Below, piece by piece: positions 22,829-33,338 of a stretch of 38,442 bases of DNA. The stretch is taken from positions 1-38,442 of the forward strand of contig DATLAJ010000140.1 in NCBI GenBank assembly GCA_035527515.1, in the 5' to 3' direction. How positions within the stretch are numbered: the stretch's first letter is position 1; each line of letters begins with the position of its first letter. The notes beneath the pieces were generated by a model. That model had not been told where the DNA came from and did not search any database. It saw only the letters and a program-made list of their open reading frames with translations. This stretch comes from a bacterium. Its GTDB lineage: Bacteria; B130-G9. The position numbers were made by a program, and so were the translations under genes.

Positions 22829-22835
<7 letters not shown>
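22808..22835 (+). other. 5' arm of the 23S processing stem
   Basis: Bases 22820-22835 pair with 25845-25830 over 16 positions, three of them G-U. An outer GTAAAG (22808-22813) pairs with CTTTAC (25850-25855). Such a stem flanking 23S is the usual RNase III substrate. Confidence 0.6.
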
Positions 22836-25838
<3,003 letters not shown>

Positions 25839-25902
25839 AGCGCGCATAACTTTACAGCAGCTCCATAGACCTCTTCTGAGAAGCAATCTTAGCAAGAAAG
25901 TT

Positions 25903-26019
25903 TCTCGGCGGTCATAGCGAAGGGGGCACGCCCGTTCCCATTCCGAACACGGAAGCAAAGCCCTTCTGCGCCGATGGTACTGCCCTCCTTAGGGGTGGGA
26001 GAGTAGGACGCCGCCGAGA
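25903..26019 (+). rRNA. rrf: 5S ribosomal RNA
   Basis: A 117-nt 5S rRNA. The terminal helix pairs TCTCGGCGG (25903-25911) with CCGCCGAGA (26011-26019). The internal CCCGTTCCCATTCCGAACAC and GGGTGGGAGAGTAGGACGCC blocks are diagnostic. It lies about 65 bp after 23S, in the same direction, and is followed directly by a T-rich run. Confidence 0.95.
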
Positions 26020-30297: not shown

Positions 30298-31704
30298 TCA
30301 GTGGACGAGTTTCTTGTCCCTTTCCCAGTCGAGAGGTCTGCTACGCGCAGTTGTGTGGCAGACTTCGCAGACTCGCAGGGTGGGTTTTCTGAGCCGTATC
30401 CTGCTGTTATCAAGGTGCATGCTTGCTGGCCCGTGGCACGCCTCACATTGCACATTAGCCAGTTGGGGCGTATCCTGCTGATTGAGATAGCCTTGAGAAT
30501 CCGCGTAGCCCGTGGTATGGCAGCGGAAGCAGCCGGGGTCTTTGTCCTTACCCATTTTGACGAGCGTGGCCATAGCGTTGGCGTGCCTCGTCTTGCTCCA
30601 TCTGTCATAGATATCCTTGTGGCATTTGGCACAGGACTGTGAACCGACATATCTTGGCCGAAAGTTCGGTAGATTCTTGGCCTCCGTGGTTTTTTTGGAC
30701 GAGGTCCTCTCTGCATTTTTCTTGCGAGTGATCTCGTCCCCTCTTCTCTTGGCGTCCCTTATCATCCCCTCGATGGTTCTGTCCTTCGGGAATTTATCGT
30801 CTATTGAAACGAGCTCGCCGGAGTGTGTCTTGACCTTGTGCCCCTTGACGTCGAAGGTGAGGGTGAGCTTGCCCGCCTGTTTGCCACGAGCGGCGCATTT
30901 GAGCAGTATCGTGTCCGTTCCCTGGACGACCTCAGGCTTGTAGAGGCGCCGCATGTTGCCGGATATGAGGAAGAGGTTGATGCCCTTGACCTCGCTGGTG
31001 AGCTTTCGCGCCATCTGCATCTCCATGTTGCCCATCCCGATTATCATGTCGCACTTCCTGCTCAATTCCCCGACGATGCTCTCTGCGGTGGTGATCGGGT
31101 CCAAAAACTCGACTTTCTCCTTGTCTTCTATGCTCATGGAGCGGCCGGAGTCGGTCGCCGCCACGCCGAATATACCTATCTTGATCCCGCTGTGTTTAAC
31201 CCCTAGGGTGCTCTTCTCACCGAAGGTCTTGATGACATAGGGTTCGAAGATGGGCTTCTTGGTGGCCTTATCGACGACGTTGGCCGCCAAGAACGGGAAG
31301 GAGGTCTCCTTGCTGCTATTTTTCAGGTACTCGAGGCCATAGGTAAACTCCCTCCTGCCGAGGTTCAGGCCGTCGTAATGCAGCATCCCATAGACCTTCA
31401 GCAAGAGCTCGGTGTATATCTCGTCGCGCTTGCTTTTGCCGCCGAAGGCATCGCCGGCTCCCAATACTAGGAAGTAGCTCCCTGAGTTAGCCTTCCTTGT
31501 GGAATCTATGAAGCCTGCTCGACCAGCAAGCCCACCTTCTTTGTGCTTTCAGCCGCAGGGGGCGATTGCACCCCAGGTGTCGCTGGAATAGACGATAGCG
31601 AGCTTGAACTCGTCCGGCTTCTTAGCACTAGTGGAGACGCCCAGCAGGATACCCGCCGCAGCAATCAGGCTCAGGAATATGGCGACATACCAGTATTTGC
31701 GCAA
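30298..31704 (-). CDS. Exported tetraheme cytochrome c with UshA-like domain; TGA codon likely selenocysteine
   Basis: A 468-residue product if the TGA at 31551-31549 is read as selenocysteine (residue 52). The TTG start at 31704 has gaggag 6 nt upstream. An N-terminal signal segment (YVAIFLSLIAAAGILLGVS) is followed by KLAIVYSSDTWGAIAPCG, the TGA, then KHKEGGLAGRAGFIDSTRKA and LVLGAGDAFGG. This is the start of a UshA/5'-nucleotidase-like metallophosphatase fold, where I expect PCGC before GGLARR, so the TGA replaces a Cys. Residues 358-450 hold four CxxCH heme sites (CAKCH, CFRCH, CEACH, CEVCH) and a cytochrome c554-like pattern. Protein similarity continues unbroken across the TGA. Without recoding it would be a broken gene. 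Confidence 0.75.
31511..31533 (-). promoter_or_regulatory. Candidate bacterial SECIS hairpin
   Basis: In the mRNA, GGGCUUGCU (31533-31525) pairs with AGCAGGCUU (31519-31511) over 9 bp including three G-U pairs, closing the 5-nt loop GGUCG. The stem begins 15 nt after the UGA and the loop lies 24 nt after it. The loop contains GGUC, as does the SelB-binding loop of E. coli fdhF SECIS. Spacing and loop both fit bacterial selenocysteine insertion. Confidence 0.65.
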
Positions 31705-31754: not shown

Positions 31755-31783
31755 AATATAACTAGCGGGCCCAGAATTGTCAA
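31755..31783 (-). promoter_or_regulatory. Strong promoter of the cytochrome gene
   Basis: On the minus strand TTGACA (31783-31778), a 17-bp spacer and TATATT (31760-31755). The transcript would start near 31748 and have a leader of about 44 nt, so the TTG-initiated frame lies wholly within it. Confidence 0.7.
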
Positions 31784-31830: not shown

Positions 31831-32577
31831 CTACATCTTGTGCACTGTCTCCAAGTATAGCCTCTCAAGCGAGGATATCCTCTCGGCAGACTCCTTCTCC
31901 GATTCTTGGGCCGGCAAACTCTCGCCAACCACGCGGCCGGCGTTGATGATTATGACCCGGTCACAAGTTTTTGCCACGTCGGCAAGAATATGTGACGATA
32001 CGATCAGCGTCTTTTCGGTCCCCAGCCTGGAGATGAGCTCTCGCGTCTTTACAATCTGGTCAGGGTCTAGGCCAGCTGTCGGCTCGTCAAGTATGACCAA
32101 AGATGGGTCGTGCACGATCGCCTGTGCCAGGTTCAACCGCTGCCCATACCCTTTGGACAGCTTTCTGGTAATCATATCTCTGACGTCGCCAAGGCCAGCC
32201 GCAGATATGACCGTTTCCACACGGTCGTGAAGCTCAGGCCGGGGTACATCCCGCAGCCGTGCCCAGAACCCAAGGTATGCCGTAACGGTCAATTCACGAT
32301 ACAGCGGGGGCTTTTCAGGCATGTAACCAATCTTCCTGATTGCATAGTCGCGCCGCGAGGCTACGTCCGTGCCCTCGATCGATACCCGCCCAGAATCCTG
32401 CCTCAAAACGCCTGCGATTATCCGCATTATCGTCGTCTTGCCAGCCCCGTTTGGCCCAAGAAGGCCCACGGTCTCGAACCGCCTGACTGCGAACGTCACC
32501 CCCGAAAGGACCTCTCGCTCGCCGAACCATTTAGAGACCCCCGTTACCTCGATTGCGTTCTGGACCTCCTCGCTCAT
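31831..32577 (-). CDS. ABC transporter ATP-binding protein (ABC-2/GldA type)
   Basis: A 248-aa ATPase. It shows Walker A LLGPNGAGKTTIMRI, Q-loop GYMPEKPPLY, signature LSKGYGQRLNLAQAI, Walker B LVILDEPTAGLDPDQ and H-loop VSSHIL. The GYMPE and SKGYGQR variants are characteristic of ABC-2-type exporters such as GldA, rather than of MlaF. I chose the ATG at 32577, which overlaps the cas6-like stop (ATGA); the longer frame to 32634 adds residues lying within cas6. No permease is present here: the next gene is the cytochrome with its own promoter. The partner must therefore be elsewhere. Confidence 0.9.
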   Translation of the reverse strand: MSEEVQNAIEVTGVSKWFGEREVLSGVTFAVRRFETVGLLGPNGAGKTTIMRIIAGVLRQDSGRVSIEGTDVASRRDYAIRKIGYMPEKPPLYRELTVTAYLGFWARLRDVPRPELHDRVETVISAAGLGDVRDMITRKLSKGYGQRLNLAQAIVHDPSLVILDEPTAGLDPDQIVKTRELISRLGTEKTLIVSSHILADVAKTCDRVIIINAGRVVGESLPAQESEKESAERISSLERLYLETVHKM

Positions 32578-33338
32578 GTGCCCCGCGCCTCGACCATGCC
32601 AAAACCGATCGAGTTCTTCTCGCCGAATCCGCACTCGTATCCTACTCGGACCAATTCCTTGCTTCCGTCCACGGTGAACGGGCAGAGCACGCCGCGAACC
32701 TTGATGCCCTTGAAATTGATGAGTCTGGTTATTCGTTTTCTCCGTGCAGCGTAGTCTGCGTCGAAATTCATGCCGAAGCTCTCATCGGACGGCGGCTTGC
32801 CAAAGATCAGCTGGTGTTTTCTCTTGAGGTTCACCCGCACCGCCTCGACGAACTCCTTGCCCGGGGCGAGGTACCTTATCGGGTTTTTGGTGGAATCAGC
32901 GTCCCAAATAGATACCGTTATCGGGCTGAGGCACACAAATTGCACAGGCAGCTTGAAGGAAGGCTCGGGTATCTGCTCGACCTTCTGACCCGTCGCCCGG
33001 ACTCCCGCGACCGTCAATTCCGGGTCTTTGCTGAAGCCGGCGAGGAGGTGGGCAATGAACTCCTCCTTTGCTGAACTCACGCACCAGCTGAAGTCCTGGG
33101 CCTCAAGATGCAGCCATTCGCCGAGAACGCGTCTCTTGCTGACCTGAAGCTGTGAGAAACAGAAAAGCTTATACACGCGGTTGTTCATTCGGTACCCCTC
33201 ATTGTGCAGGAAGTCCGCGTAATCGCTTGAGGAGAGCGCCAGCCAGCGATACACGGCCGAGACAAGCCAGCTGTTGTAGTTGACCGGTATCCTTTGCCCG
33301 GCAGGTCCCTCGAGCCGGAAGCGAAGCCTTACTCTCAT
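32574..33338 (-). CDS. cas6: CRISPR-associated endoribonuclease Cas6
   Basis: A 254-aa RAMP-fold protein. It has the Cas6 N-terminal pattern RIPVNYNSWLVSAVYRWLAL, then DYADFLHNEGYRMNNRVYKL and FCFSQL. The C terminus has RGVLCPFTVDGSKELVRVGY followed by the glycine-rich GFGEKNSIGFGMVE, the diagnostic loop of the family. Candidate catalytic residues are Tyr30, His45 and Lys57, close in number to Tyr31, His46 and Lys52 of Pyrococcus Cas6. In CRISPR systems Cas6 cuts the repeat RNA to release guides. Here no array, cas1-2 or effector gene is in the window. Its ATG (ggagg 8 nt upstream) follows the MCE gene and its stop overlaps an ABC ATPase, so it is an integral gene of that operon. Confidence 0.9.
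   Translation of the reverse strand: MRVRLRFRLEGPAGQRIPVNYNSWLVSAVYRWLALSSSDYADFLHNEGYRMNNRVYKLFCFSQLQVSKRRVLGEWLHLEAQDFSWCVSSAKEEFIAHLLAGFSKDPELTVAGVRATGQKVEQIPEPSFKLPVQFVCLSPITVSIWDADSTKNPIRYLAPGKEFVEAVRVNLKRKHQLIFGKPPSDESFGMNFDADYAARRKRITRLINFKGIKVRGVLCPFTVDGSKELVRVGYECGFGEKNSIGFGMVEARGT

Follow-up and report, generated by a model that had tools for sequence, protein, structure and literature searches.

Genomic context of the UshA-like tetraheme gene

The DNA analysed here (the window, 38,442 nucleotides) carries on its minus strand, at 30298..31704, a gene of 468 codons for an UshA-like tetraheme protein, very probably a selenoprotein, with a TTG start and a TGA stop; the assignment rests on its translation and on its score against the family model NF041198. 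An earlier note on this DNA had described the frame from 31704 to 30298 as open save for one TGA and as preceded by a strong ribosome-binding site and a sigma-70 promoter, and the frame, an RBS-like site and a promoter-like site are all present. Translation yields a single internal stop, the TGA of codon 52 (31551-31549), in the context SSDTWGAIAPCG-stop-KHKEGGLAGR. An RBS-like GAGGAG lies directly upstream of the TTG, and a consensus scan finds the sigma-70-like promoter TTGACA-17-TATATT (31755..31783, minus strand), which agrees with the consensus at 11 of 12 positions and alone is no evidence of function. The first 28 or so residues (31621..31704, minus strand) form a putative signal peptide or N-terminal membrane anchor, as judged from the sequence and from a helix at residues 5-21 of the structural model; the protein is probably exported. 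The translated frame also contains four CxxCH motifs.

Upstream of the gene lies a Mla-like ABC cassette of MlaD, Cas6-like and ABC ATPase genes, and downstream lies xerD. One orthologue-bearing genome of the same phylum (G002) has, as read from translations, the same order of a MlaD-like gene, a 254-residue gene at the Cas6 position, an ABC ATPase gene and a tyrosine recombinase gene; a tyrosine-recombinase gene is likewise found downstream of the orthologue in a second genome (G003). The Cas6-like gene itself (32574-33338, minus strand), between MlaD and the ABC ATPase, scores 126 bits against TIGR01877 (cut-off 58.65), and the gene in its place in G002 (L122:3607-4371) is of the same length. 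No other Cas6 and no cas1 was found in the genome that contributed the window, and this Cas6 has apparently been recruited outside CRISPR. Elsewhere in the window, 22829-26019 (plus strand) holds 23S and 5S rRNA genes; no 16S match was found in the window, and the rRNA genes may therefore be unlinked.

Domain architecture and the former metal site

The protein was earlier described as an UshA-like domain joined to a tetraheme cytochrome, and both parts are borne out. The UshA-like domain, of metallophosphoesterase fold, spans approximately residues 34-340 (30685..31605, minus strand). An AlphaFold2 model, built without hemes or metals and with a mean pLDDT of 90.5, finds its best Foldseek matches in the CD73 and UshA 5'-nucleotidases (E ~1e-23). 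The C-terminal domain (30345..30645, minus strand) is similar to tetraheme cytochrome c554, with 70.3 bits to PF13435 and the heme motifs CAKCH, CFRCH, CEACH and CEVCH. The PCGU motif, with the in-frame TGA as its last codon, follows immediately on the first strand of the UshA-like domain, which is the first metal-ligand strand.

While the fold is that of UshA and CD73, most of the canonical metal ligands are gone, as alignments to UshA and of family columns show. DxH of UshA is replaced by DTW, GNHE by GRRE and a later His by Asn. Of the whole two-metal set (DxH, GD, GNH, H, GHxH), D42 and D85 are kept, and the remainder reads DTW, GRRE, GN and GNMR. Those ligand changes that were compared also occur in the orthologues. 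Across the family, the Asn of GNH is mostly Glu and the His of DxH mostly Lys or Arg; some aligned relatives do keep part of the His set, 32 of the 58 having His at column 226, so that other members of the family may retain some metal binding or hydrolytic activity. By contrast, the 58-row alignment shows no variation at C50, at G51, at position 52 (Cys or Sec) or at any CxxCH residue of the heme motifs. With the ligands lost and these residues invariant, the conserved chemistry appears to be that of the CGU motif plus the hemes, not that of a phosphoesterase site.

These observations bear on the alternative of a selenoprotein that is catalytically active as a periplasmic hydrolase, either a nucleotidase or a thiosulfohydrolase like SoxB, its Sec lying within or close to the metal site. 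The UshA/CD73 fold, family-level sequence matches to the SoxB and UshA models, and the location of PCGU just past the first metal-ligand strand speak for such an enzyme. Against it stand the replacement of most DxH, GNH and GHxH ligands, in the orthologues as well for the changes that were compared, and UshA and SoxB model scores that are far below the cut-offs. An active hydrolase is thus an unlikely reading of this gene.

Decoding of UGA codon 52

The reading preferred here, that the in-frame TGA (31549..31551, minus strand) encodes selenocysteine, draws first on comparison with relatives. Three further genomes from the same phylum were compared, and two of them contain an orthologue. The two orthologues, from other genera of the same family, are 69% and 63% identical to the window protein, and both have the same TGA in the same context, PCG-stop-KHKEGGLAG. 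Third codon positions absorb most of the changes between the window gene and these two on both sides of the TGA, so selection acts at the protein level along the entire frame. A larger set of 84 tetraheme sequences joins the window protein and both orthologues to relatives in many phyla. At the equivalent of codon 52, 63 of them have TGA, 20 have Cys and one has CGT for Arg, in keeping with the earlier expectation that homologues would carry Cys at residue 52. The Arg of that one tetraheme relative (L106:509-1567) may reflect either an error or genuine loss of the Sec/Cys residue.

The genome of origin (3.47 Mb, 95.6% complete) possesses the machinery for selenocysteine insertion, which the earlier note had named as a check in the form of selA, selB, selC and selD. 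A tRNA-Sec is found above the gathering score and is identified by ARAGORN as tRNA-SeC with anticodon TCA; selB scores 320.6 bits (352.8 with a C-terminal piece), above its cut-off, selA 560 bits and selD 360 bits. The selD gene (contig C59, 14500-17500 region) has an in-frame TGA of its own, between SGAG and AAKIGP, and so represents a second selenoprotein; Sec or Cys is common at this site of SelD. A working Sec system is thereby supported in a phylum that is sparsely sampled (4 genomes).

Downstream of the TGA is the hairpin proposed in the earlier note, a candidate SECIS (31508..31538, minus strand). It reads GGGCTTGCT-GGTCG-AGCAGGCTT; its 9-bp stem starts about 15 nt after the TGA, and the apical loop GGUCG starts 24 nt past the codon. 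The 31-nt stem-loop alone has a folding energy of -12.7 kcal/mol (z -3.1), reached by none of 200 shuffled sequences; the z-score of a wider segment of 55 nt is about 0, which makes folding energy a weak argument by itself and conservation a better one. The loop is identical in sequence and position in three orthologues, the window gene included. In the 12 codons 3' of the TGA, codons for the same residue are identical in 9/11 and 10/12 cases in the two orthologue comparisons, versus 133/298 and 120/268 (~45%) elsewhere in the gene, a depression of synonymous change with Fisher p of 0.027 and 0.015. In the stem of the G002 orthologue, inspected by eye, one pair has gone from G-U to A-U and is still paired, and a second substitution disrupts a pair. 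Hairpins were scored as SECIS-like if the apical loop lies 12-36 nt after the codon and has a G at its first or second position; such a hairpin is predicted for 56 of 64 Sec genes, for 12 of 28 homologues with Cys and for 33% of controls with shuffled codons. No SECIS in the window reached the gathering score in an Rfam search. Many relatives differ from the window gene in that the loop of their fold is GGA or GGC, is shorter and lies at 28 nt.

The TGA might instead be a real stop, or a sequencing or assembly error, and the gene a pseudogene or truncated. The assembly is indeed a draft of 183 contigs, but an identical TGA in the PCG_KHKEGG context occurs in independent genomes of two other genera, constraint in the orthologue comparison extends over 416 codons past the TGA, and the full Sec machinery is present; because independent genomes share the TGA, the pseudogene reading is rejected, and a stop or an error at this codon retains a negligible probability. 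Selenocysteine at codon 52 is the reading to be adopted, with UGA, as predicted from these sequence comparisons, in all likelihood decoded by SelB via the downstream stem-loop. Annotation that does not allow for Sec decoding would cut the UshA-like gene short.

Relationship to described selenoprotein families

The gene product is a bona fide member of a selenoprotein family that is already known, NF041198 (UshA_like_PCGU, "UshA-like (seleno)protein"), a curated equivalog model with a cut-off of 275 bits. The family corresponds to the UshA-like selenoprotein of COG0737 that bears a CxU motif. The whole protein scores 286.9 bits, and 279.3 bits when the genome is searched with translation continued past the stop. 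The match covers profile positions 8-269 and 344-514 of 519, and therefore both the UshA-like and the heme regions. The protein has the traits of the family, namely an N-terminal PCG-Sec/Cys motif and an UshA-like domain followed by a C-terminal multiheme domain. Within the family it is somewhat divergent, and has GRRE where most relatives read GE.

The earlier note had called the gene a candidate new selenoprotein and stated that no selenoprotein of this type had been described. Neither statement holds, as the NF041198 model already encompasses both domains and published tables include the family. The Global Ocean Sampling selenoproteome of 2008 (PMC2398784) includes an UshA-like CxU selenoprotein and counts 76 forms with Sec and 92 with Cys; the UshA-like CxU family is listed in a 2022 review (PMC9312934) and is tabulated with the accession NF041198 in a 2026 review, which also lists the multiheme selenoprotein ExtKL (PMC13188914). 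An identity of only ~24-32% to relatives outside its own phylum might suggest a wholly new family, but that reading is refuted by these tables and by the curated model, whose equivalog cut-off is passed over both domains and which all 58 aligned sequences match, and it has scarcely any probability left. With the family already in databases and reviews, the gene is a good further example of it and not a discovery, and an UshA-like tetraheme selenoprotein is now supported in this phylum as well.

Two other families are related more distantly. NF049981 (UshA-like (seleno)protein family 2) matches weakly, over the N-terminal 90 residues (55.6 bits versus a cut-off of 140), and the protein is not a member. 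Multiheme c-type cytochrome (seleno)protein ExtKL (NF040886) is similar in being a selenoprotein with c-type hemes; the match is weak and confined to the heme region (33.3 bits versus a cut-off of 250), and the window protein falls outside this family too.

A possible role in periplasmic redox chemistry

No established function for the UshA-like PCGU family was found in the literature consulted. Some indication may come from gene neighbors of relatives. A DsbA-like gene lies directly downstream on the same strand in 11 relatives, mainly PCGC-type Nitrospirota. The DsbA link thus comes from Cys-type relatives, while the window locus itself is flanked by the Mla-like cassette and xerD. Clustering of the genes around the relatives produced numerous clusters in the wrong frame where genomes are GC-rich; Pfam confirmed a small number of neighbors, among them LptD, HU and the DsbA-like gene. 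The pairing of LptD with HU looks like lineage synteny and not like a functional link. In the genome of origin, an 810-residue paralogue (contig C151, 5227-7656, minus strand) combines an UshA-like domain of PCNC type with GILT/DsbA-like domains in one chain.

The loss of phosphoesterase ligands, taken with the DsbA-type neighbors and the thiol-reductase fusion, suggests a periplasmic CGU redox centre, and the neighbors and the GILT/DsbA fusion would be consistent with a relay of periplasmic thiol or selenol redox equivalents to the hemes. In the likeliest scheme, a fold of the UshA/CD73 type has lost most of its two-metal phosphoesterase site and bears Cys-Gly-Sec after the first strand, where the CGU motif would act as a periplasmic selenenylsulfide redox centre. 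Its partners in electron exchange would be a thioredoxin-fold protein or a thiol/disulfide substrate on one side and the C-terminal tetraheme domain on the other. A tentative proposal is that PCGU proteins are redox enzymes derived from a metallophosphoesterase that no longer works as such, in which CGU lies close to where the metals were once bound and is coupled electronically to a tetraheme chain in covalent attachment. The full mechanism, which sets the CGU centre between a thiol/disulfide or thioredoxin-fold partner and the hemes, is likewise conjectural. If true, the PCGU family would link periplasmic thiol/selenol chemistry to multiheme electron transfer; for so widespread an UshA-like family, loss of the phosphoesterase site and thiol-oxidoreductase neighbors provide a testable redox hypothesis.

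Further UshA-like genes accompany those described above. Near the PCNC paralogue on contig C151 a second UshA-like protein is encoded, without hemes and with RSSC where PCGU would stand, and related genomes have counterparts of both. One Eisenbacteria contig (L040) contains three UshA-like tetraheme genes, with KCGU, RCGC and PCGC motifs, so that Sec and Cys forms are adjacent. At two other loci (L063 and L077), a heme-less UshA-like PCA-TGA gene adjoins a tetraheme PCG-TGA gene, and the two perhaps constitute a two-gene selenoprotein pair.
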